A stretch of DNA of 64,000 nucleotides from an uncultured Phycisphaerales bacterium. Lineage in GTDB: Bacteria > Planctomycetota > Phycisphaerae > WQYP01. The translations under genes were made by a program, and so were the position numbers. The notes beneath the pieces were generated by a model. It was given only the letters and a program-made list of their open reading frames with translations, was not told where the DNA came from and ran no database searches. The stretch covers positions 1-64,000 of the forward strand of contig CAIMWO010000038.1 in assembly GCA_903845195.1 (NCBI GenBank), read 5' to 3'. Of this stretch, positions 1 through 32,409 are shown piece after piece. How positions within the stretch are numbered: position 1 is the stretch's first letter; every line of letters starts with the position of its first letter.

Positions 1-2
1 CC

Positions 3-125
3 CGCCTCCGCCGCGCCGCCTTGAACATGCTCCAACGCGAGACCACCCGCAAGATCTCGATCCGCGCCAAACGTCTCCGCGCCGGCTGGGACCACAACTA
101 CCTGCTACTCATCCTTCAAACTTGA
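3..125 (+). CDS. Transposase C-terminus, ISAs1 type, cut by window edge
   Basis: Reading from base 3 gives an open frame that ends at TGA 123-125. Its last residues include LNMLQRE, RAKRLRAGWD and YLLLIL, which match the usual C-terminal end of ISAs1-family DDE transposases (NML-re, KRLRAGWD, YLL). Only about 40 residues are in the window, so it cannot be judged whether the gene is intact. It marks an insertion sequence at the left border of the accessory block. Family assignment rests on the short C-terminal motif only. Confidence 0.6.
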   Translation, partial: RLRRAALNMLQRETTRKISIRAKRLRAGWDHNYLLLILQT

Positions 126-866
126 GAATGCGATTGCCCTGACCTGCGAAGGCTTTGCCGTTACGGGAACGGGGAAGCAAGATCGAAAGCGATGTGAAGC
201 GAAGCAAAAACACAGATCGCGAACCCCCACGGATCCGCGATCTGCACTATTGAGCGAATTTGAGCTGTCAGCACATGGCGGCAAAGGTCAGCAAAGCCAG
301 CAGCGCGATTTTTAGGCGCTTGGGAGTCATGAACTTATCCAGATACAGTACCACTGCCGCCTCCCGGCTGTTCCACAGCCGTTACAACCTGCCAAAGATC
401 CTTTATGCAAAGGCGGTACACAATGAGAACCGGTTGTCTAAAATTGTTATAAATGATGTATGCGGCTTATTTTATAAATGTTATTTCGGTGCACGAAAAA
501 GTGTTATCGGGAGTGGAGGCGTTGTTTGAAAGCAACACGCCACAAGGGTACGCATAGTCGTGATGCGTCGCAGCATCATCCTTCCTGTTTACAACCTTCT
601 TCGGAAAGTCTCTCTTTCGAGGCGTGTTCAAAAACACCCCGAGAGCAACCATGAAAGATCCTAAGCAGCCTGATTGAAGGCTCCCTGTTCGCAACCTTCT
701 TCGGAAAGTCTCTCTTTCGAGGAGGGTTCAAAGACACCCCGAGAGCAACCATGAAATATCCTAAGCGGCTTGATTTACAGAACTTACGAGTTCACTGATG
801 CGGCGGTTAACAGGATAGAGATTTTTGGTCGTCGGCAGTCGGCAAAAAGTCTCTCTTGATCTCTGG
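126..866. other. Repeat-rich intergenic stretch
   Basis: No convincing gene is seen here. The short open frames on both strands lack ribosome sites and family motifs. The stretch holds the 100-bp tandem repeat at 581-780 and four occurrences of an AAAGTCTCTCTT core (about 604, 704, 845 and 874), three of them in small hairpins with different stems. It separates the transposase tail from the convergent TPR gene. Confidence 0.6.
581..780. repeat. Two tandem copies of a 100-bp repeat
   Basis: Bases 581-680 and 681-780 are direct repeats with a period of exactly 100. Both copies carry CAACCTTCTTCGG, a GAAAG-TCTCT-CTTTC hairpin, GTTCAAA-GACACCCCGAGAG (A for G in copy 1) and GCAACCATGAAA. A related set of blocks (CTGTTCGCAACC, GGTTC, GACACCCCGA and a TCTCTCTT-loop hairpin) lies in inverted orientation at 7406-7476. 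The function is unknown. It could be a dispersed palindromic repeat or the ends of an island. Confidence 0.8.
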
Positions 867-2036
867 TTAACAGAAAGTCTCTCTTCTGTTATGGTCGAGC
901 GTGTTGAGCGCTGCGGCAGCCGACTGTCGTGCCTCATGTTGTTTGCCCAGTGCCCATTGCAGTCGAGCGATCAACCACAGTGATTCTCCCTCGACGCGCG
1001 GATCGTTCGCCCGCCGTGCCAGTTCGAGTGCCCGCGCCGCATATCCCATTGCTTCCGCGCTGTTGCCCTTGGCAATGTTCAATTCAGCCAGCATGCAAAG
1101 TCCCTGTTCCAATCGCTCGCCGATCCGCTCCAACCGGTCGAGCGCCTCGATAAGCACCGTCGAAGCCTGTTCAAAATCATTTTGTGCGCGCAGGCAATTT
1201 CCCATGTTGGCCAGACAGCGTGCTTCTCCAAGCCGGTCGGCGATCGTACGGAACAGCCTGAGTGCCCGACGATAAAGCTTCAAGGCCGAATCATATTGTT
1301 GCTCGTGGAAATCGACGAGTCCCATGTTCATGCTGGCATTGGCTTGCGCCCGGTAATCATGGAGGCTGCGTGCCAATGCCAACCGTTGCGCATACACTCG
1401 GCGCGCCTCGCGATACTGCCCTTTGTGTTTTAGCACCACACCGAGATTTCCCAAGGCTTTGCCGATGCTCACTTGATCACGTATCTTTCGCGCCAAGGCG
1501 AGCTGAATGCGGTAACAGTGAACCGCTTCGTCATAGTGTCCGAGATTTTTCTGGATGACGCCGACGTTGCCGATGGCCTGGCACTCGGCTTTGCGTTTGT
1601 GTAAAGAGCGTGCGAGCATTAATTGATACCGAAAACATCGTAGTGCACGATCAAATTGCCCGATCTCACGAAGCACTACCCCAAGTTGCCCCACATGGAT
1701 GCAGAGGGACTTTTGGTCGGAAAGTAATCGCGCTGCGGAAATGCCGGCCCTAAAGCGCTTGATGCGATCATGCCCCAGCAAGCGGAGATTGAACAACTCT
1801 CCGCCGGCGAGCGCAAAGGCACAACAGAGTCGGGCGGCATGCCGCATGTGCCGGTAACGCTCAAGGGCCCAGGTCCAAGTAAAGTCGATCTGTTGCCACT
1901 CACGGTCGAATTCCTGTAATGCATTAATGGTGTGGTCACCGCCACGATCGAATCGTGCGGTGCATCGCCGAAGCACGCCCAAGTAGTGCCGAGCCAGTCT
2001 TGAATGCGTTTGATCAGCAAATGTGCGCATCATCAT
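867..2036 (-). CDS. TPR-repeat protein, C-terminal partner of STAND regulator
   Basis: This 389-residue protein is mostly tetratricopeptide repeats of the 40-residue TPR_12 style. Units such as NVGVIQKNLGHYDEAVHCY, NLGVVLKHKGQYREARRVY, NMGLVDFHEQQYDSALKLY and NMGNCLRAQNDFEQASTVL run from about residue 110 to 330. TPRs of this kind form the sensor half of NB-ARC-type STAND ATPases. The gene starts inside the stop codon of the upstream XRE/NB-ARC ORF (ATGA, 4-nt overlap). The pair therefore looks like one XRE-NB-ARC-TPR protein split in two, either by a frameshift or as two coupled polypeptides. No enzymatic motif is seen. Confidence 0.8.
   Translation of the reverse strand: MMMRTFADQTHSRLARHYLGVLRRCTARFDRGGDHTINALQEFDREWQQIDFTWTWALERYRHMRHAARLCCAFALAGGELFNLRLLGHDRIKRFRAGISAARLLSDQKSLCIHVGQLGVVLREIGQFDRALRCFRYQLMLARSLHKRKAECQAIGNVGVIQKNLGHYDEAVHCYRIQLALARKIRDQVSIGKALGNLGVVLKHKGQYREARRVYAQRLALARSLHDYRAQANASMNMGLVDFHEQQYDSALKLYRRALRLFRTIADRLGEARCLANMGNCLRAQNDFEQASTVLIEALDRLERIGERLEQGLCMLAELNIAKGNSAEAMGYAARALELARRANDPRVEGESLWLIARLQWALGKQHEARQSAAAALNTLDHNRRETFC
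868..891. other. Hairpin with TCTCTC loop at the end of the TPR gene
   Basis: TAACAGAA (868-875) and TTCTGTTA (884-891) are perfect 8-bp arms around the loop AGTCTCTC. The loop matches that of the 581-780 repeat hairpins while the stem is entirely different. It overlaps the stop codon of the minus-strand TPR gene. No T tract follows at once on the minus strand (TTTTT comes about 20 nt later), so a terminator role is possible but not clear. Confidence 0.5.
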
Positions 2037-3328
2037 TTTCGGAGCAGTGTACGTGCGTGAGCGGCCAGCAATGCATGCATTCTAAAACGGGATGTGCCCA
2101 TCGGTTCGAGCAAGCCGCGGTCGACAAGCGCCCTGATAATCGGCCGCGGGTCCTTGGTTTTCCAGAGAACTCGTAAAGAGGCAAGGCTGAACGTAGCAGG
2201 GTCCGGGGCGCAAGCGCCAAGCTGAGCAAAGCAAGTACGGATCCTCGCCGACAAGCGGTCAGTGCTTCGGTTTAGGAGAGAGGCGACCGTCGGTGCGGCG
2301 TCGGTTAACGAGTCGGCCATGTCCGCTGGCGCAGGTGCTTTCAACAGCGTTTCCGTATCCGCACGAAGATCGCGAAGCAAGTCTTCCACACCCCATTGGT
2401 TTTGTGCTTCGGCGACGAGGAGTCGTCCTGCAACGTGGATGGCCAAAGGCAATCCCTCAAGTTTCTGGACCAACTCTTGGCTTTCTCTTGGATTTTCCGC
2501 AGCGATGGCCGGAGCAAGTCGAGTGAAGAGTTCCAGTGCGTCCGCATAGCTAAGGACGTTGAGCGTGTAAATGGCATCGGCGGAAGACCCCACTGCCAGC
2601 GCAACTTCATTAAGCCGCGTCGTCACAAGCATGGAACAGTGCGGGCCGCCAACTAGAAAGTGTGCCACATGATCAGCGCGCCAACCGTCATCGATGACCA
2701 GAAGCACGCGACGTGAGTGCAAGAATCCCGCGAGTCGGGTCTTGGCCATCGCAACGGTGCTTGCTTCGATCGCATCCGCGATTCCGAGCGCAAGCCCCCA
2801 ATGAGCCAACTCGGAGAGTACGTTGGCAGTGGGACCGAGCGTACACCAAAGAATACCATCGGGAAACGAGCCGACGAGTTCCTGCTGATGCACCAGAAAA
2901 GCCGCAAGCGTTGTTTTGCCCACGCCTGGCAGGCCTCGGATGATCGTAATAGGGTTTCCCCCGTCAGATGAGGGGTGATGTTCTTGACGAAGTAGGCGCT
3001 GTGTGAGCTGGACCACGTCGCGATCGCGGCCGACGACGGTAAGAGGCGGCGGAGGCAATAGGAATGGTCCAGTCTCACTGATAGCTTGGGCGATAATTGG
3101 CGGCCCATCACGTGTGGGCAACAGAATTTTCCCAACATCGTCGCCGATTCCCAGAGCTTTCGCGATCTTACTAACGGTAATCCATGTCGACCGACGACCT
3201 TGTTCGGCGCGGCCGATCACGGGTCTGCTCAAAACGGCTTCGAATGCCAGGCGTTCCTGACTCCAACCCTTGTCAGCGCGGTATCGGTATATTGCTTCAC
3301 CGTTTGGCCGTGCCATTCCTTTGCCCAT
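2033..3328 (-). CDS. XRE-type HTH / NB-ARC STAND ATPase regulator
   Basis: The N-terminus (about residues 10-65) is an XRE helix-turn-helix: RADKGWSQERLAFEA, then TVSKIAKALGI. An NB-ARC NTPase follows, with Walker A GLPGVGKTT at 132-140, Walker B LLVIDDGW near 209-216, the LVTTRLNEVA sensor strand near 235 and the GLPLA motif near 292. A winged-helix-like tail ends at 431. Full-length members of this class continue into TPR or WD repeats, and here those sit in the next ORF (4-nt overlap). A ribosome site AAGGGGA precedes the ATG at 3328. The likely role is ligand-gated transcription control or defence signalling. The target is unknown. Confidence 0.85.
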   Translation of the reverse strand: MGKGMARPNGEAIYRYRADKGWSQERLAFEAVLSRPVIGRAEQGRRSTWITVSKIAKALGIGDDVGKILLPTRDGPPIIAQAISETGPFLLPPPPLTVVGRDRDVVQLTQRLLRQEHHPSSDGGNPITIIRGLPGVGKTTLAAFLVHQQELVGSFPDGILWCTLGPTANVLSELAHWGLALGIADAIEASTVAMAKTRLAGFLHSRRVLLVIDDGWRADHVAHFLVGGPHCSMLVTTRLNEVALAVGSSADAIYTLNVLSYADALELFTRLAPAIAAENPRESQELVQKLEGLPLAIHVAGRLLVAEAQNQWGVEDLLRDLRADTETLLKAPAPADMADSLTDAAPTVASLLNRSTDRLSARIRTCFAQLGACAPDPATFSLASLRVLWKTKDPRPIIRALVDRGLLEPMGTSRFRMHALLAAHARTLLRK

Positions 3329-3465
3329 AACGTCCCCTTCGTATTACCAAATGCTACCAAAGTGATGCTGTAAGTGCGCAGCCATGATCGGCCATTCTAC
3401 GGCATGATCAAGCGTGTTGAAGTTGACGGATTGTACCACGCCTCAATCAGCTAAAGGGGAACGCT

Positions 3466-3642
3466 ATGAAGATGGAAAAACAGAAACGAAAGAGCCCCGT
3501 CAAGTCAAACATGGCGTACGCGCCGATCACGGAGCCAGAATATTCCCAAGAATCCGCAGCCGAAGATCGGCGCGCCCGAACACTACGAATCCTCCTTGAT
3601 ACGCAGCGTCCAATGACGTCGTCACATCCGGCTCAACAATGA
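3466..3642 (+). CDS. Small unknown protein, 58 aa
   Basis: ATG at 3466 follows a good ribosome site (AAAGGGGA) and is read to TGA at 3640-3642. The product is basic at the N-terminus (MKMEKQKRKSPVKS) and has no recognised domain. It is the first of five plus-strand genes that run close together to 5544, so it is probably the leader gene of that operon. Codon use gives no independent support, and confidence rests on the ribosome site and the tight packing. Confidence 0.45.
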   Translation: MKMEKQKRKSPVKSNMAYAPITEPEYSQESAAEDRRARTLRILLDTQRPMTSSHPAQQ

Positions 3643-3676
3643 AGCAACTAGTTGAACCGTAGCGAAGGAGAAAACA

Positions 3677-3856
3677 ATGAATTTATGGCAAACGAACTTC
3701 AATGAAAAAATCTGGGACGGCATACGTCTGGCGACCTGGGGAGTACTGGCGATCGATATCGCGCTGGCGTGCCTGTTCACGCTCTGGTTCTCCATAGAAG
3801 CGCTCTGGCACCTGCGGGGATGGTGTGCGCGCGTCCTGTTTCAGAATGACTGGTAA
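3677..3856 (+). CDS. Small single-span membrane protein, 59 aa
   Basis: ATG 3677 follows GAAGGAG at a suitable distance and the frame ends with TAA 3854-3856. The protein has one hydrophobic segment (VLAIDIALACLFTLWF, about residues 23-38) between short polar ends and is rich in tryptophan. It could be a membrane-anchored partner of the downstream sigma-like and peptidase genes. No family is recognised. It sits 34 nt after the previous small ORF and 30 nt before the sigma-like gene. Confidence 0.6.
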   Translation: MNLWQTNFNEKIWDGIRLATWGVLAIDIALACLFTLWFSIEALWHLRGWCARVLFQNDW

Positions 3857-3886
3857 GAACTAACAGCGGCTGTCGGAGGCGTAGTC

Positions 3887-4477
3887 ATGACACGACCATT
3901 ACGAACCAAAGAACAGGTGCAGGTCACACCCGATCTTTTGAGCGGCATTGACCGAGTCCTGGACTCCGCAGTGGAGCAGGATGAGGCGATCCGCCGATTC
4001 TGGATCTGGCGGGAGAAGTACGATCCCAGTAAAGCCAAAATTTTTACGATGCTTTTCAAGTTTTCAGATCAGGTGGCCACCGAGTTCCGTAGCGGACGCC
4101 TTCGATGGCAACAAGAGCAGAACCTGGAGCAGGGGGTGGACGCCGATTTCTTTGAGCGCGTCGAGGCGCTGGGTCCAGTCGATGATCCTCCCGACGATGC
4201 CGGGCCGAAGGCCTCTCCCGTCCAGAAGACCCTTGCCGACTGTTACGGTGCACTTTCGGAGTTACAGCGGAACATTTTGAGCTGCTATTCCGATGCGGGT
4301 AGCTATGAAGTTGATGCCGCGACAATCGGTAAGGAACTGGGGAACAAACACAAGAATGGCGTCCCGATCCCCGGTGGCACGATTCGCACCACGAAGTCGC
4401 GCGCGTGGGATTCGCTCGATATGTGTATGAAGAAGAAGGGCTTTGACCTCAAAGCATTGGGGTATAGCAATGACTAA
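3887..4477 (+). CDS. Sigma-70-like DNA-binding protein
   Basis: This 196-residue protein starts at ATG 3887 after GGAGG. Its N-terminal half (FWIWREKYDPSKAKIFT onward) resembles sigma region 2 in layout. The C-terminal half has a region-4-like helix-turn-helix pattern: LSELQRNILSCYSD, then AATIGKELG, then GGTIRTTKSRAWDSLDMC. ECF sigma factors and sigma-like regulators are built this way. It may direct transcription of its own operon or of the adjacent hairpin arrays, but that is inference. It overlaps the next gene by 8 nt (ATGACTAA), which suggests translational coupling. Confidence 0.6.
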   Translation: MTRPLRTKEQVQVTPDLLSGIDRVLDSAVEQDEAIRRFWIWREKYDPSKAKIFTMLFKFSDQVATEFRSGRLRWQQEQNLEQGVDADFFERVEALGPVDDPPDDAGPKASPVQKTLADCYGALSELQRNILSCYSDAGSYEVDAATIGKELGNKHKNGVPIPGGTIRTTKSRAWDSLDMCMKKKGFDLKALGYSND

Positions 4478-4838
4478 TCAGAACCCAGAAATGCGACGCG
4501 ATATGCTGCTCCGTAGGGCGCTGGTGCCCAAGGGGTATCGACCAACTAAAAACTCAGATATCGAGAAGATGCTAAATACAATCGATGACGCGCCTATTGA
4601 CCATGATAAGAAGGCTCGCATGTTGCGGAAAATCAACAGTCAAGAGCCGATGTTCCAACGGCCTGCAAAGCCAATATTTACGGTCGATACGAAACTTACG
4701 GAGCAGGAACGGGAAATGGTAGCGCTGCATCGAGCCCAGAATAAACCATTACCCCCGGATCTTGCGGCGAAAGTCAAAGCCATGGAGCAACGCACCTCAG
4801 CGAAATCTGATCCTGGCGAGGAGACTGCGGGTGACTAA
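4470..4838 (+). CDS. Unknown 122-aa protein between sigma-like and ImmA-like genes
   Basis: The start chosen is ATG 4470, inside the end of the sigma-like gene (ATGACTAA). A longer frame from 4443 is possible but less natural. The protein is hydrophilic and charged (KNSDIEKMLNTID, LTEQEREMVALHRAQ, PDLAAKVKAMEQR) with probable helices and no membrane segment. It ends in the same 8-nt overlap style (GTGACTAA) with the ImmA-like gene. Its position suggests a regulator or adaptor that the peptidase may cleave, by analogy with ImmA/ImmR pairs. The sequence itself shows no recognised domain. Confidence 0.6.
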   Translation: MTNQNPEMRRDMLLRRALVPKGYRPTKNSDIEKMLNTIDDAPIDHDKKARMLRKINSQEPMFQRPAKPIFTVDTKLTEQEREMVALHRAQNKPLPPDLAAKVKAMEQRTSAKSDPGEETAGD

Positions 4839-5544
4839 CTTCCAGTGGAGAATCGAGCAAGATGCACGTGACGCCGCACTCGCGAGGGGCGAAGAGATTG
4901 CGAAGCTAAATAGGTTCTCGGCGGGGCCGGTAGACCCATTCAGAGTGATCGCCTCGGAAGGCGGGCAAATTCATGCGGAAGGAGATGATTTCCGCGACTG
5001 TTTCGACGGCCGCCTAAGCTATCACGACGGGCGATTCCTTCTAATATACAACATTCGATATAATGCGTGGTCGCACTCTGGGACGCACCACCCAAAAGTC
5101 CGTTTTACCGTTGCCCATGAACTTGGTCATTATTATTTGGACCCACACCGTGAATTCCTCGTGAATCGGCGGAAACCGATTGAGTCATTCACGGAATTCG
5201 AATCGAACAAGCAGGTTGAGCGCGAGGCCGACGCATTTGCCGCAGGCTTGTTGATGCCTGAATACCTCGTCGCACCTCGGATCAACCGTCAGACGCAAGC
5301 CTCAACTGCCAGTATCAAGCAAGTGGCCAAAGAGTTTGATGTGAGTCTGACGAGCATGATGGTCCGATGGACCCAGCTGTCGGATTTTCCTTGTGCAACT
5401 CTCTGTATCCGGAACGAGCATATCCTCCGTGCTGAATCAGCACGGCTCCATTCAATAGTGATAAAATGCATGGCTTTCAGATTTCGATTCGTCATTGGCA
5501 CACAGCGAGTTGATCGCTTCGCTTTTCGTCTCGTCAATTCGTGA
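4831..5544 (+). CDS. ImmA/IrrE-like zinc metallopeptidase, C-terminus replaced
   Basis: The start is GTG 4831, overlapping the previous gene by 8 nt. The zinc site is plain: VAHELGHYYLDPH (HExxH near residue 96) followed by KQVEREADAFAAGLLMP, which supplies the third ligand, as in COG2856 ImmA/IrrE peptidases that cleave phage or stress repressors. After about residue 198 (ATLCIRNEHI) the frame runs into the first hairpin repeat (5421-5456) and part of the array leader before stopping at 5544. The last ~40 residues are therefore array DNA read as protein. The gene seems to have been cut by arrival or expansion of the array. The catalytic core is intact. Confidence 0.8.
   Translation: MTNFQWRIEQDARDAALARGEEIAKLNRFSAGPVDPFRVIASEGGQIHAEGDDFRDCFDGRLSYHDGRFLLIYNIRYNAWSHSGTHHPKVRFTVAHELGHYYLDPHREFLVNRRKPIESFTEFESNKQVEREADAFAAGLLMPEYLVAPRINRQTQASTASIKQVAKEFDVSLTSMMVRWTQLSDFPCATLCIRNEHILRAESARLHSIVIKCMAFRFRFVIGTQRVDRFAFRLVNS
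5421..5456 (+). repeat. Terminal repeat of a lost upstream array
   Basis: This is a single hairpin unit: TCCTCCGTGCTGAATCAGC, then ACGG, then CTCCATTCAAT, continuing AGTGATAA. It has the same degenerate 3' end (ATTCAA[CT]AGTGATAA in place of ATTGAAGC) as the last unit of array 1 at 6378. It is therefore the distal end of a third module of which the rest is gone. It lies inside the C-terminal part of the ImmA-like frame. Confidence 0.75.
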
Positions 5545-5747
5545 TAGGATGCGTTAGCTTGGTTCTTGCCCGCCGCTCGCAGGAGAGCGAGGTGGTACAG
5601 GGAAGTACCGCGTATGCTCGAGTTCTTTGACAATTCAAGACTTAGGACGCAACGGTTGCCCGTGAGTCGGTGGCTGCCCCGCCGTTTTCGGCCACGCTCG
5701 AATCCCGCAACCTAACCCCCCTCTGCCACTCGCCTTGCGAGTGCAGC
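5510..5747 (+). ncRNA. Structured leader of hairpin array 1
   Basis: Bases 5510-5649 match 6462-6601 at 126 of 140 positions without gaps. The first 60 nt differ at two sites and the last 30 at none. Substitutions between the copies keep two hairpins: CTCGC/GCGAG (5576-5580 with 5587-5591) and GGTAC/GTACC (5594-5598 with 5605-5609), which becomes GGTGC/GTGCC in the other copy. A further hairpin at 5723-5746 (ACTCGC-CTT-GCGAGT) abuts the first repeat. An extended -10-like TGATAGGAT lies at 5542-5550 (6494-6502 in the second copy), with no strong -35. It could be a CRISPR-type leader, a promoter or a functional RNA. It is not protein coding. Confidence 0.55.
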
Positions 5748-6413
5748 GTTCCCCGCGCTGACTCAGCACGGCCCCATTGAAGCCTTTTCCCGCTGAGATA
5801 GTGGTTTTTTGTTTCGCTTTCCCCGTGCAGTCGAAGCATGGCTCCATTGAAATTGAAAAATCCACTTCACACCGAAGGGAACTGCGGCGTCTCCCGTGCT
5901 AGGCCAGCGCGGCCCCATTGAAGCTCTTGCAGGTACGGCCAGGAAGCCGCTGGCGTTCCGAGTTCCCCGTGCTGAGCCAGCACGGTCCCATTGGAGCATG
6001 TAAGGGTTGACCTGTGCTGGGAAGGCCGTCGCGGTCCACATGCTAAAGAAGCATGGCCTCATTGAAACGTACCAGTTAGCCCAGCTCCCTGTCCCCCGTG
6101 CTGAACATGCACGGCTCCATTGAAGCTGATTCACGTCGTTGATGTCCGTGAACAGTGGCCTGTCCCTCGTGCCGAACCGGCGCGGTCCCATTGAATATCT
6201 ATATTGGGCCATCTGAACATGAGAACAGGGAAACGTCCTCCGTGCTGAACCAACACGGCCCCATTGAAGCGCGTTCCCGAGGCAGTCAGTCGCCTTGTAA
6301 TTTTGTCCCCCGTTGCTGAAGAAGCACGGCCCCATTGAAGCTACGGTCCATGCTCCTGTGCCAAGACCCGCATCATTGTCCCCCGTGCTGACGAAGCACG
6401 GCCCCATTCAACA
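5748..6413 (+). CRISPR. CRISPR-like degenerate hairpin array 1, ten units
   Basis: Ten repeats of 35-37 nt start at 5748, 5818, 5889, 5962, 6033, 6091, 6162, 6235, 6305 and 6378. The consensus is GTCCCCCGTGCTGA, a short loop, AGCACGG, then CCCCATTGAAGC. Spacers are 33-37 nt except one of 22 nt (6069-6090). The 3' ATTGAAGC resembles the 8-nt crRNA handle of type I and III systems. No two repeats are identical, yet most keep a 6-7-bp stem, including compensatory pairs (CATGCT/AGCATG at 6033; CGTGCCG/CGGCGCG at 6162). The last unit ends ATTCAACAGTGATAA. No cas gene is present. It is either an old CRISPR array under structural selection or a different guide-like array. Confidence 0.6.
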
Positions 6414-6461
6414 GTGATAAGCACATAAGCTTCAGAGTATGAGCCGTCATGGGTGAGCGAA

Positions 6462-6700
6462 TTGATCGCATCGCTTTTCGCCTCGTCAATTCGTGATAGG
6501 ATGCGTTAGCTTGGTTCTTGCCTGAAGCTCGCTCGTGAGCGAGGTGGTGCAGAGAGGTGCCGTGCATGCTCGAGTTCTTTGACAATTCAAGACTTAGGAC
6601 GTGAATGCTGCCCACAATTCAACGGCATTCTCACCCGTTTTCGTCCACTCTCGCATCAAGAGACCTAACTCTTATCCGCCGCGCGCCTTGCAAGCGCGGC
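6462..6700 (+). ncRNA. Structured leader of hairpin array 2
   Basis: This is the second copy of the 140-nt leader (6462-6601, 90% identical to 5510-5649). A less conserved segment follows, ending in a hairpin against the first repeat (CGCCGCGC at 6677-6684 with GCGCGGCG at 6694-6701). That hairpin keeps the loop core GCCTTGC of copy 1 but replaces both arms of the stem. Loop changes also lengthen the first hairpin to CTCGCTC/GAGCGAG. Structure is thus better kept than sequence, which points to an RNA role. The copy lies directly after the terminal unit of array 1, so modules are head to tail with a period of about 953 bp. Confidence 0.55.
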
Positions 6701-7346
6701 GTATCCTGTGCTGAATCAGCACGGCCCAATTGAAGATTGTGAACTGGACTGAACATTGATTGGTCCTTTGCGTCTCCCGTACTTACAAAGCGCGGCCCCA
6801 TTGAAGCATGCTGGCGTACGTATTCGCTCCGGTCCGCACGTGTCCCCCGTGCTGACCAAGCACGGTTCCATTAAAGCTGCGAAAGGATCGCGTATGCCGC
6901 GTCGTTGAAAAGTCCCCTGTGCTGAATCAGCACGGCCCCATTGAAGCCGATCCGTGACGCGAAGAACATCGGCCTGAGAACGTCCCCCGTGCTGACGAAG
7001 CACGGCTCCGCTGAAGCTCCCAAGGGATATTGAGGATGATCCATCGGACGCCCGCATCCTCCGTGCCGACAACGCACGGCTCCATTGAAATTGAAAAATC
7101 CACTTCGCACCGAAGGGTACTGCGGCGTCTCCCGTGCCGACAACGCACGGCCCCATTGAAGCTGCGCTGCGACGAAGTAACAGTCGGCTATGGACTTCTG
7201 TCCCCATGCTGAAGACGCATGGCCCCATTGAAGTGCCGCGTTCGGATATCCAATGATCGTGTAGAATGGACCCCCGTGCCGAAGGAGCACGGCCCCATGA
7301 AGCTTGGTTTTGCCCATCAAGAGACGCGAGTCCAGTTGTCCCCCGT
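6701..7346 (+). CRISPR. CRISPR-like degenerate hairpin array 2, nine units plus broken tenth
   Basis: Repeats start at 6701, 6772, 6842, 6912, 6982, 7056, 7127, 7200 and 7269. A tenth begins GTCCCCCGT at 7338 and stops after nine bases, so the module is truncated on its right. Spacers are 34-38 nt. Stems vary in the same compensatory way (CCATGC/GCATGG at 7200). The unit at 7056 with its spacer (7092-7126) corresponds to the unit at 5818 with its spacer (5854-5888) in array 1. The terminal ATTCAA[CT]AGTGATAA unit seen at the end of the other two modules is missing. No cas gene is found on either side. Confidence 0.6.
7056..7126 (+). repeat. Repeat-spacer unit shared with array 1 (5818-5888)
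   Basis: The 35-nt spacers 5854-5888 and 7092-7126 differ at two positions only (A/G and A/T). The two repeats before them share GGCTCCATTGAAAT, a 3' end unique to this pair, but their stems differ at many positions (GTGCAGTCGAAGCATGG against GTGCCGACAACGCACGG). The unit was duplicated between the arrays, and the spacer has since been kept better than the repeat, the reverse of what ordinary CRISPR turnover gives. Confidence 0.75.
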
Positions 7347-7405
7347 TCCTGTTAACCACAACACTGCATCTCGACCAGAGACTCAGAGACTTTTCCGCAT
7401 CCCAA

Positions 7406-7476
7406 TCGGGGTGTCAGGGCGAACCATAGGGGTTGCGAACAGCACCCCGAATCTCGGTGGCGAAAGAGAGATCGCC
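7406..7476 (-). repeat. Inverted relative of the 581-780 repeat
   Basis: Read on the minus strand this stretch has a hairpin GGCGA-TCTCTCTT-TCGCC (7459-7476), then CTGTTCGCAACC (7431-7442), GGTTC (7421-7425) and GACACCCCGA (7406-7415). The last three blocks occur in the same order in the left repeat (685-742), and the hairpin loop matches the left hairpin loops. Spacing differs. Together the two sites bracket the STAND, sigma/ImmA and array genes in opposite orientation. Confidence 0.5.
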
Positions 7477-7504
7477 CTGTTGGCCAAGAATCCCCCAATT
7501 TCCC

Positions 7505-7544
7505 GCAAAAACACCAGCCCCCGAGGCTGGATGCGCTCGGGGGC
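7505..7544 (-). terminator. Intrinsic terminator of tRNA-Asn
   Basis: GCCCCCGAG (7517-7525) pairs with CTCGGGGGC (7536-7544). On the minus strand the hairpin is followed by TGGTGTTTTTGCG. It lies 47 nt past the 3' end of the tRNA-Asn gene on the same strand. Confidence 0.65.
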
Positions 7545-7590
7545 AGGTGTTAACCAGTGGGGCGGTCAGTTCCGCTACCCTGATTTACGC

Positions 7591-7661
7591 TCCGCGAGTA
7601 GGACTCGAACCTACAACATTCCGGTTAACAGCCGGATGCTCTACCATTGAGCTATCGCGGA
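7591..7661 (-). tRNA. tRNA-Asn (GTT)
   Basis: The minus strand folds into a complete 71-nt cloverleaf: acceptor TCCGCGA/TCGCGGA, D arm GCTC/GAGC, anticodon arm TCCGG/CCGGA around CTGTTAA (anticodon GTT), and T arm GTAGG/CCTAC with loop TTCGAGT. CCA is not encoded. It lies about 245 bp right of the truncated array end. No duplicate of its 3' end was seen elsewhere in the window. Confidence 0.97.
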
Positions 7662-7897
7662 ATGGCATGGCAAGAGAATCGGCTTCTCTGGCCGGAGTTC
7701 ATTAAATTAAACAATCCATGGGCCACGGTCAAGGATATCGATGAGGCCACCTGCTGACATTGGACATTATAGCCTGGCTTGCCGGGGCGAATTGTGGGCG
7801 TATTCAGGGGCAGCGGCGGTATTCTTTGCGCCGCGGAGAGATGCCGCTATGATCCGCCTTCCCGAATTCATAGTCTTTTTTCAAATTGAGGGTTTTC

Positions 7898-9937
7898 ATG
7901 GCTGCTTCGCACAAGTCGGTCGATCAATTGCCGTTTTCGTTGCCGTTCCGTCAGGTGCATCTCGATTTTCATACGGGACCCGCGATTCCGGATGTGGGCT
8001 CTCAGTTCGATCCAGGCGAATTCGCGCGCATGGTCAAGGCAGCGCATATCAATTCGATCACGGTTTTCGCCAAGTGCCACCACGGACATCTGTATTACAA
8101 CACCGCCCGCCCCGAGCGCCATCCCGGACTCAAACCCGGCCTCGACCTCCTGGCCGGCCAAGTCGAAGCACTACATCGTGAAGGAATCCGGGCCCCGATT
8201 TACCTGTCGGTACATTGCGACGAATACGCGGCCGATCATTACCCGCAGTGGATCGCCCAAAACGAAGACGGCTCCCACGTCGGGCCCAAGCCGCTGCAGC
8301 CCGGCTGGCAGATCATGGATATGGCGTCGCCTTACCTCGAATTCCTCGCCGAGCAGACCGCCGAAGTGCTCAAAACGTTCAAGCCCGTGGATGGCATCTT
8401 CTTTGATATGTGCTGGGATCAGCCCTCCTGGAATCCGTACCGCCTCGAAGCCATGGCCCAGAACGGCTTCAACCTCGATTCCGCGGATGACAATCGCCGG
8501 TACGCCACCATCGTCGCCCATGGCTACATGAAGCGTTTGCACGACCAGGTCAAAGCTTCCTCCCGCGATGCCTCCATCTTCTTCAATTGCCGCCCGTTCT
8601 TCCAACTCAAAGATGACATTGCCTACCAATCCCAGGCCGAAATCGAAGCCTTGCCCACCGGCGGCTGGGGATACATGTACTTCCCCATCAACGTCCGCTA
8701 CGCCCGAACCTTCGGCAAGCCCTACCTCGGAATGACCGCACGCTTTCACAAATCATGGGCCGACTTCGGCGGACTGAAACCCTACGCCGCACTCGAATAC
8801 GAAACCTCCCAGATGATCGCCCATGGCGCCCGCTGCTCCGTCGGCGACCAACTCCATCCCCGCGGCATCCTGGACAAAGCCTCCTACGCCCTGATCGGCA
8901 AGGTTTACAAACGCGTCGCAGACCGCGAGCCCTGGCTCGAAGGCGCCGCCCCGGTCTCGCAGATTGGCCTCTTCCAGGCGCCGACGGGAAATCTGAGCAC
9001 GACGCAGTCCACTTCGCGCACGGATGAAGGGGCGACGCGCATGTTGACGCAACTGCGCCAGCAGTTCGATGTAGTGCAGCCAACATCGGAATTCTCCCGC
9101 TACGAATTGCTCATCTTGCCCGATGCCGTAAAGGTCGATGACGCCCTCTCCGCAAAGCTGCACGCATTCCTGGCCGCCGGCGGCAAACTGCTGCTCACAG
9201 GCACATCAGGCCTCACCCCCGACGGCACAAAGTCGCTGCTACCCGAATTGCCCGTCCTCCCGCATGGAATGTCGCCGTTCCAGGCAAATTATTTCCGCGT
9301 CGCGCCGCCGGTACTGGAAGCCGCCAGCGACGCGTCGCTCGTTTCCTATGATGCCGACCACATCTTGTACGATCGCACAGTCCGCGTGACCGCCAAGCCG
9401 GCCGCAGAAACCCTCGCCCGAATCGTCGAGCCCTACTTTGATCGCAACTGGCAGCACTTCTGTTCCCACGGCCAGACGCCCACGGACCAACTTTCAAAAT
9501 TCGCCGCCGCCGTCGTAGGAAAAAATGTGGCCTACCTCGCCTTCCCCGCGTTTCACAGTTTTGGCGAGCATGGGAATCTCCCCTACCGCCTGCTCGTGAA
9601 AGCCGCGCTCGATCGCCTTCTCCCCGAACCGCTCATCAAGGTCTCCGGCCCATCCTATATCGAAGCCACAGTGCAGCGGCAACCCACGACCGGCAGCCAA
9701 ACCCGCACCATTATCCATCTCCTCGGCTATTTCGCCCAGCGCCGCACCGCCGGCCTCGACATCGCCGAAGACATTGTGCTCCTGTACGATGTGCAGGTAT
9801 CGCTGAAATTGCCAGTCGCCCCCCGCGAAGTCTACCTGGCCCCCTCGCGCCTCCCCCTGACCTTCACCTACAACGCCGGCCGCGTAGTGCTGAAACTTCC
9901 CGTGCTGCGTGGCCATGAGATGATCGTAGTGGAGTGA
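7898..9937 (+). CDS. Glycoside hydrolase-like protein (GHL6 barrel, trimerisation domain)
   Basis: The start is ATG 7898 with GAGGG just upstream (a TTG at 7886 overlaps that site and is less likely), giving 679 residues. The N-terminal TIM-barrel half has INSITVFAKCHHGHLYYNT, PIYLSVHCDEYAADHYPQW and VDGIFFDMCWDQPSWNPYR, typical of the putative glycosyl hydrolase GHL6/GH42-like group. A glutamine amidotransferase-like beta-galactosidase trimerisation domain follows (YELLILPDAVKVDDALSAKL to LLLTGTSGL, about residues 390-450). No signal peptide is visible, so it probably acts in the cytoplasm. Substrate unknown. Catalytic acids cannot be assigned securely. Confidence 0.75.
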   Translation: MAASHKSVDQLPFSLPFRQVHLDFHTGPAIPDVGSQFDPGEFARMVKAAHINSITVFAKCHHGHLYYNTARPERHPGLKPGLDLLAGQVEALHREGIRAPIYLSVHCDEYAADHYPQWIAQNEDGSHVGPKPLQPGWQIMDMASPYLEFLAEQTAEVLKTFKPVDGIFFDMCWDQPSWNPYRLEAMAQNGFNLDSADDNRRYATIVAHGYMKRLHDQVKASSRDASIFFNCRPFFQLKDDIAYQSQAEIEALPTGGWGYMYFPINVRYARTFGKPYLGMTARFHKSWADFGGLKPYAALEYETSQMIAHGARCSVGDQLHPRGILDKASYALIGKVYKRVADREPWLEGAAPVSQIGLFQAPTGNLSTTQSTSRTDEGATRMLTQLRQQFDVVQPTSEFSRYELLILPDAVKVDDALSAKLHAFLAAGGKLLLTGTSGLTPDGTKSLLPELPVLPHGMSPFQANYFRVAPPVLEAASDASLVSYDADHILYDRTVRVTAKPAAETLARIVEPYFDRNWQHFCSHGQTPTDQLSKFAAAVVGKNVAYLAFPAFHSFGEHGNLPYRLLVKAALDRLLPEPLIKVSGPSYIEATVQRQPTTGSQTRTIIHLLGYFAQRRTAGLDIAEDIVLLYDVQVSLKLPVAPREVYLAPSRLPLTFTYNAGRVVLKLPVLRGHEMIVVE

Positions 9938-31670: not shown

Positions 31671-32409
31671 ACGTCACCTCATAGGACCAGTTGACGATCC
31701 AGCGACGCGGAACCTCCCTGCCCGGCTGTCGTTTACTGCTCACCAATTCCATCGCCCACCGTGGCTGCATGGAGTCTGAATAAAGGGCATGGACCCTCCA
31801 CCGACTGGCCGCCCAGGAAGCCTCTGACTCTTCCCACTGCGGACGTGCCAATAACCCCAATCCCCTCCCGGCCTCCGCCGCCAACTGCACCCGCCGGCTC
31901 ATGACCGTATTGAGCCCGCTGCCATCCGCCACCACCACCGCAATTCCCGGACACCGCAGCGCCTGGCTCATCGCCCAGCAACGCTCATCCACCGACAACG
32001 GATCCAGAAAAAGACAACGGCTCAGTACCCGCTCCACGGAATAACGGCCATGCTCCGACAGCACGGCATACAGCAACTGCAACGTCGGCCAGCACTTGCG
32101 CCCGATCCAGATCGTTTGAACCTGCTTCACATACCGGCAACGCCGGTGCACCAGTGCCGCCAGAAGCGTCAGCGGCCCATGCCAATCTCCCCCCCTGGAA
32201 ACCGCGCCCGGACCATCCCACGCTGACGGATAAAACCATTCATGAACGCCGCCTTCGACCAGCCAAGAGAGTGCCTTTTCCTCGTCGCACTCAGCTTTCG
32301 AAGCCCCCTCGCATGATCGTGGGCAACCTTGAATCTGTTCCGCCCTCCGCAATCCCAGCAGGGGATGTTCCAGAAGCGACTGGACGGACATGGAGGGTAT
32401 CGGAGGCAT
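31573..32409 (-). CDS. imuA: ImuA, RecA-like mutagenesis protein
   Basis: The frame has 278 residues from ATG 32409. A second ATG at 32391 is possible and neither has a strong ribosome site. It matches ImuA in having GVHEWFYP, PLTLLAALVHRRCRYVKQVQTIWIG with the nucleotide-site region degenerate, and SQALRCPGIAVVVADGSGL. ImuA is a RecA-like factor of the SOS translesion complex. It is first in the imuA-imuB-dnaE2 operon and divergent from the SRAP gene. A sigma-70-type promoter and a LexA-like site lie just upstream. Confidence 0.88.
   Translation of the reverse strand: MPPIPSMSVQSLLEHPLLGLRRAEQIQGCPRSCEGASKAECDEEKALSWLVEGGVHEWFYPSAWDGPGAVSRGGDWHGPLTLLAALVHRRCRYVKQVQTIWIGRKCWPTLQLLYAVLSEHGRYSVERVLSRCLFLDPLSVDERCWAMSQALRCPGIAVVVADGSGLNTVMSRRVQLAAEAGRGLGLLARPQWEESEASWAASRWRVHALYSDSMQPRWAMELVSSKRQPGREVPRRWIVNWSYEVTYGSGALHLSPAVGSGMDSAQETRGKAPDARIA

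Follow-up and report, generated by a model that had tools for sequence, protein, structure and literature searches.

The 64-kb window analysed here, taken from the start of contig C38 of an uncultured Phycisphaerales bacterium, carries two neighbouring clustered regularly interspaced short palindromic repeat (CRISPR) arrays with hairpin repeats of the type I-G class. These repeats are far from uniform, and searches of the assembly (4.62 Mb in 97 contigs, 94.4% complete) revealed no gene of the cas families tested. The locus is probably a double array of I-G descent that has long been closed to spacer uptake and has diverged under selection for CRISPR RNA (crRNA) processing, now without detectable cas genes. 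Its 20 hairpin units of 35-37 nucleotides (nt) lie on the + strand between 5422 and 7303, as one orphan followed by arrays of 10 and 9 (Table 1), and are named below by their first positions.

Diverged arrays with a type I-G repeat

Trained on 19 units, a covariance model recovered all 20 on the + strand of the window at 39.3-54.7 bits, in agreement with an earlier note on this DNA that had described about 20 units in two arrays plus one orphan. The next hits scored at most 17.5 bits; three were hairpins of the same units on the opposite strand, one at 32046 scored 14.6, and nothing comparable was present elsewhere in the window. When the whole genome was searched with model R1 at E values up to 0.001, 20 matches were obtained, every one inside the window. 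A candidate second array on contig C12 (L001) was rejected, as it was a lone exact match to a pattern specified at 14 bases and lay within an open frame of 443 amino acids. The orphan, which had been called terminal, precedes leader 1, and its 3' part, ATTCAA, is also found in unit 6378. A truncated repeat copy stands at 7338, at the distal end of array 2. Spacers are 34-38 nt long in 16 of 17 cases, as the earlier note had stated for most of them, the remaining one (6069-6090) being 22 nt. Repeats of 36 nt thus alternate with spacers of similar length, and one spacer is present twice, with junctions that fall inside hairpins when read by eye.

Set against their consensus, the units are changed in 113 of 720 cells, with a mean identity to it of 84% and a mean pairwise difference of 25%, so the near-identical repeats that define an I-G array are not seen here. 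In 114 chains of units from other contigs the median repeat identity was 1.00 and the 5th percentile 0.969, in a comparison set that is biased to exact CCATTGAAG and includes some non-CRISPR rows (e.g. L138 and L156). CRISPR repeats are normally copied from a neighbour, and their divergence can therefore serve to time the most recent uptake of a spacer. The open frames on the opposite strand at 5763-6407 and 6716-7228 (ASMGPC..., LQWGR..., FNGA...) are translated repeats rather than genes; L109 and L123 contain similar frames, and a literature search on the LQWGR frames found nothing.

The consensus repeat of the window, GTCCCCCGTGCTGAAGAAGCACGGCCCCATTGAAGC, contains a stem of 7 base pairs (bp), a 4-nt linker and the 8-nt handle ATTGAAGC. 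It agrees with the published I-G repeat of Thioalkalivibrio, which is described in the available excerpt of PMC9638904 as 36 nt long, with a 7-bp stem, a Csb2 cut 4 nt beyond it and an 8-nt handle. Individual units agree with it less closely: of the 20 in the window, 14 form the seventh stem pair and 8 carry the complete handle. The Rfam family CRISPR-DR16 (RF01330) matched eight units, seven of them at the exact unit coordinates (E = 3e-4 to 0.65), but its best score of 29.2 bits is below the curated gathering cut-off of 35, and at the gathering threshold Rfam found only two tRNAs in the window.

Among the matches listed, model R2 placed the repeat class in 17 of 28 family genomes, that of the window included; the genus of the window organism has a single member among these 28. 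Units, Cas1 matches and Csb2 matches shared one contig in eight of them (G007, G009, G011, G015, G017, G020, G021 and G026), and in G018 the units shared a contig with Cas1 only. The array of G015 comes after an operon of Cas3g, Cas8g2, Csb1, Csb2 and Cas4g-Cas1g (locus L179); G004 has an operon of the same genes, and both were named gene by gene as I-G. Because family genomes carry this repeat class on the same contigs as I-G cas genes, we assign it to type I-G (formerly I-U). In their 36-nt repeat, their consensus stem, linker and handle, their spacer lengths and the likeness of their leaders to that of one relative's uniform array of this class, the window arrays resemble I-G arrays. They differ in the identity of their repeats, in having two leaders embedded between repeats and in the lack of a detected cas operon, a defining trait of an I-G system, in an assembly of the completeness given above. 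Since neither uniform repeats nor a cas operon were found, we describe the locus as a diverged array of I-G descent and do not class it as a full I-G CRISPR-Cas system.

When genome contigs were scanned for runs of three CCATTGAAG motifs, at least 116 stretches were obtained, 114 of which yielded chains of at least three units, mostly uniform CRISPR arrays. The uniform arrays have the common end GGCCCCATTGAAGC and very different stems. Twenty-four of the 114 chains were not made references, being duplicates, having other repeat ends or lacking an exact consensus copy. The alignment between arrays then used 78 of the 90 repeat references and one repeat from G004, the other 12 being omitted by hand under no recorded rule. 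In these 79 repeats, stem covariation between organisms was strong, with 113 cells changed on both sides versus 28 in shuffles, a value that 0 of 500 shuffles reached. A new RNA family was ruled out, the repeat class being widespread ordinary CRISPR. An RNA array of a different kind, one of two options in the earlier note, is likewise not needed given the anatomy, the CRISPR-DR16 matches, the G004 leader and the I-G contigs of the family. Literature searches for degenerate repeats or type I-U in Planctomycetes, and for repeat divergence or array decay, found nothing.

Repeats of this class were also seen in mixed settings. In G013, an I-G-like unit (L030 11039-11075, - strand) ends an array of another repeat, which ends in GGATTGAAAC, and a similar mixture of repeats occurs in G002 (L029 1095-1320). 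An IMG/VR contig carries a short mosaic array of the class (L278 8983-10277, - strand) in which stems differ between units, one of them having the stem CCATGGAT/ATCCATGG.

Uneven divergence and paired leaders

Substitution rates were counted over all 20 units, with the inserted base of 6305 removed and one gap in 7269 counted as a change. Non-consensus letters made up 6% of the stem (15/240) and 6% of ATTGAA, the first six handle bases (7/120), versus 34% of the loop (47/140), 20% of the 5' flank (20/100) and 11 of 80 letters in the linker. The stem differed significantly from the loop (P = 1e-11) and from the 5' flank (P = 3e-4), and it carries 15 substitutions where the rates at all other positions, those of the loop excepted, predict 44. 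When changes of that spectrum were simulated, 110.9 stem cells remained paired (standard deviation 1.9), whereas 116 of 120 are paired in the window (P = 0.008), and double compensated cells numbered 2 versus 0.2 simulated (P = 0.016). When the stem is taken as six pairs, changed cells number 13 of 120: 7 are wobbles, 4 are mismatches and 2, found in units 6033 and 7199, are double changes in which G-C became A-U. The earlier list of imperfect stems, limited to 5748, 6235 and 6772, has to be extended by 6033, whose outer pair is an A-G mismatch, and by 6305, with an extra stem base.

Covariation within the arrays was examined in 19 of the 20 units, 6305 being omitted for its inserted base. Changes on both sides that keep pairing occurred in only three cells, at two of seven pairs, one of which is the loop-closing pair. 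Of 500 shuffles, the observed value was reached by 5 for the covariation score, 8 for percent paired and 11 for both-side cells, but by 72 for pairs with a both-side change and 208 for further pair types. There is thus some covariation signal within the arrays, but it is weak, and the shuffles ignore shared ancestry; strong covariation was ruled out by these counts. Compared with what the earlier note had claimed, covariation in the arrays is much weaker.

Each array is preceded by a leader-like segment of about 290 nt, and the two segments are duplicates: 5440-5760 aligns with 6396-6713, with differences at 75 of 322 columns when gaps and repeat ends are counted. Within them, two blocks are identical (Table 1). 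In shuffles, the longer block had P = 0.0006, and both blocks together were found in 0 of 20,000. Each leader is flanked on one side by a repeat with ATTCAA in its 3' part and on the other by the opening repeat of an array, a placement that looks as if it arose by exchange through recombination inside repeats. Comparison with the leader of the G004 array, which has 23 identical repeats, gave local alignment scores of 73 for leader 1 (shuffled maximum 38) and 62 for leader 2 (shuffled maximum 40), each reached in 0 of 300 shuffles. Block 2 was the best kept part in G004 (26/36), followed by block 1 (23/41) and the positions outside the blocks (109/229).

Two further features were noted. About 4 kb from its uniform array, on contig C221, G004 has a Cas3g-like gene fragment with an internal stop (L028 6192-6470), and its full I-G operon lies on a contig that is numbered C38 in that genome. 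In the window, both arrays have a small hairpin, paired by eye, immediately upstream of their opening repeat, at 5727-5743 and 6679-6699, with stems that differ between the leaders (CACTCG/CGAGTG and CCGCGC/GCGCGG).

A course of events can be proposed from these patterns. Spacer uptake, the normal keeper of repeat uniformity, would have ceased or become very rare long ago. Point mutation would then have diverged the repeats, while selection probably preserved the hairpin, the six bases at the start of the handle and the two leader blocks. Recombination within repeats would have duplicated the leader and one spacer as blocks of half-repeat, insert and half-repeat. Each leader would drive transcription rightward, and a Csb2-like Cas6 domain, going by the published I-G mechanism, would cut 4 nt after the hairpin and yield crRNAs of about 71 nt. 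The matching cas genes may have been lost at some stage or may lie in sequence that the assembly lacks. The other option of the earlier note, an array of old age that no longer takes up spacers but is still processed, is the better supported one, given the conserved stem and ATTGAA and the unchanged leader blocks.

Undetected cas genes and competing explanations

Several results weigh against an array kept for processing. In the assembly of the window, no match was found to Cas1, Csb2, RAMP or Cas6 (PF10040), nor to Csb1, in a search that had no ringing control. Cas3g gave four matches, none over the cut-off, and below the cut-off all 14 control genomes ring as well. These genome searches covered Cas1, Csb2, Csb1, Cas6, RAMP and Cas3g and not Cas2, Cas5, Cas8, Cas9, Cas10 or Cas12. 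Across the 28 family genomes, they detected Cas1 in 20, of which 19 exceeded the cut-off, Csb2 in 15, and Cas3g matches exceeding the cut-off in 12. No cas remnants were detected within the window by tblastn (best E = 0.9). The absence of cas genes reported earlier thus holds for the families tested in an assembly about 94% complete, and the standard cas locus that was to be looked for elsewhere in the genome was not found in these families.

Nor did the spacers show a convincing target when searched, along lines suggested in the earlier note, against phage, plasmid, viral-contig and window sequence. No phage record matched at E 0.01. Raising the limit to E 10 gave 52 records; among the 20 listed, the best (E = 0.6) fell in leader 1, most matches lay beyond the arrays, and 28 bases of Erwinia phage AH04 inside spacer 7018-7055 (E = 7) were at chance level. 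Plasmids gave no match at E 1, and no target was found inside the window. When the cores of 4 of the 17 spacers were searched in viral contigs, three had no hit and no near-full match appeared. One 18-base core occurred in six related viral contigs, but its 35-base spacer agrees with them at only 21-23 bases, and shuffled copies of it reach 22 bases in the window alone.

Further points on the same side come from the repeats and leaders themselves. The whole handle is intact in 8 of 20 units, and its last two bases are off consensus at 13 of 40 positions, as variable as the loop, which speaks against full functional constraint. The difference between stem and linker was not significant (P = 0.055). 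The constraint tests treat units and columns as independent, and since some units share ancestry, their P values are optimistic. Neighbouring repeats are only weakly alike (loop, P = 0.034; whole repeat, P = 0.24), with no significant distance correlation. The identical leader blocks could also stem from gene conversion, and no sigma-70-like promoter was found by a consensus scan. The leaders of G015 and G021 showed no significant similarity to those of the window, 30 to 109 of 300 shuffles being as good; the leader argument therefore draws on G004 only, where the uniform array and the cas operon are on different contigs.

Many of these results are also what a dead relic would show, in which cas genes were lost long ago, decay is neutral and the stems have merely not yet mutated. 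This is the main rival to selection for processing, and we consider it a serious though unlikely explanation. The lack of detected cas genes and convincing targets, the incomplete handles, the truncated distal repeat and the C-to-T half of the flank changes (25/50) fit it, and orphan arrays were earlier taken as non-functional, as an excerpt of PMC5294841 has it. Neutral decay, however, should give even rates, whereas loop and stem differ more than 5-fold; the loop changes are transversion-rich, unlike those of the flank (P = 2e-4, a comparison affected by near-ties in the loop consensus and by base composition), and the two leader blocks have not changed. The uneven rates and the leader blocks are thus not readily accounted for by decay alone, in line with the earlier note, whereas the broken handles are.

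The arrays may instead belong to a working I-G system, with its operon in the unassembled part of the genome and with rare but ongoing uptake. The incomplete, 97-contig assembly leaves room for such an operon, the window begins at the end of its contig, 5.4 kb from the first unit, and the slight likeness of neighbouring loops would fit ongoing uptake. Against this, Cas1, Csb2, Csb1 and Cas3g over the cut-off are all missing together, though one unassembled operon could hold them, and leader-proximal repeats should be uniform, whereas units 5748 and 6701 differ from the consensus at 5 and 7 of 36 positions. We regard this explanation as improbable.

A selection-like pattern without detectable cas genes would also be expected of a co-opted transcript processed by host RNases, by analogy with Listeria rliB. 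In the excerpt of PMC3886909, rliB is an array without cas genes for which a retained function has been suggested, and it differs from the window arrays in having five identical, weakly palindromic repeats that are processed by PNPase. Against this analogy, the best-kept feature of the window arrays is the hairpin, the part bound by Csb2. There is no known partner gene, and no second such diverged array was seen among the matches listed from the 28 family genomes, a comparison in which identity was not computed per genome and in which R2, at that threshold, finds only 7 of the 20 window units. Such a cas-independent RNA array seems highly improbable. Hardly more credible is a once-I-G locus that is now expressed independently of cas genes, its units of about 71 nt being cut by the host and serving as stable guide or regulatory RNAs, with uptake ended for good.

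Setting of the arrays and implications

Table 1. Features of the double array and their positions in the window.
Feature	Position	Strand	Basis
Orphan repeat unit before leader 1	5422..5457	+	covariance-model hit, 44.5 bits
Leader 1, duplicate of leader 2	5458..5747	+	repeat finding, alignment
Leader block 1 (41 nt, no difference between leaders)	5530..5570 and 6482..6522	+	
Leader block 2 (36 nt, no difference between leaders)	5614..5649 and 6566..6601	+	
Array 1, 10 units and 9 spacers	5748..6413	+	repeat finding, covariance model
Array 1 unit starts	5748, 5818, 5889, 5962, 6033, 6091, 6162, 6235, 6305, 6378	+	
Spacer common to both arrays, 33/35 bases alike	5854..5888 and 7092..7126	+	repeat family D7
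Leader 2	6414..6700	+	repeat finding, alignment
Array 2, 9 units and 8 spacers	6701..7303	+	repeat finding, covariance model
Array 2 unit starts	6701, 6772, 6842, 6912, 6982, 7056, 7127, 7199, 7269	+	
Truncated repeat (first 9 bases, GTCCCCCGT) at distal end of array 2	7338..7346	+	read from sequence

The gene at 4762-5544 (+ strand) encodes an ImmA/IrrE-like peptidase (Pfam Peptidase_M78), with capP as its best PADLOC match (E = 6e-40). Its 3' end reaches into the orphan repeat, as if CRISPR sequence had replaced its tail. Farther upstream of the arrays, at 867-3328 (- strand), a tetratricopeptide repeat protein adjoins a helix-turn-helix and NB-ARC ATPase. Positions 1-8000 have a G+C content of 0.55, versus 0.58-0.64 elsewhere in the window, and end near a tRNA-Asn (7589-7661); this region is possibly an island. 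An integrated element bounded by the tRNA-Asn was not supported, as no second copy of at least 14 bases of this tRNA was found within the window.

An array that persists without its own cas genes has a parallel in CRISPR2 of Enterococcus faecalis. According to the excerpt of PMC4580645, CRISPR2 has the very same repeats as the cas-linked CRISPR1 and only its terminal repeat is called degenerate, unlike the repeats of the window, which differ throughout (for further reading, see PMC4869251). In the arrays of the window, loop and flank have diverged whereas the stem and the leader blocks have not, and this contrast would show what selection keeps after adaptation stops. The arrays thereby raise the question of whether immunity, or another RNA function, can long outlast the uptake of spacers.

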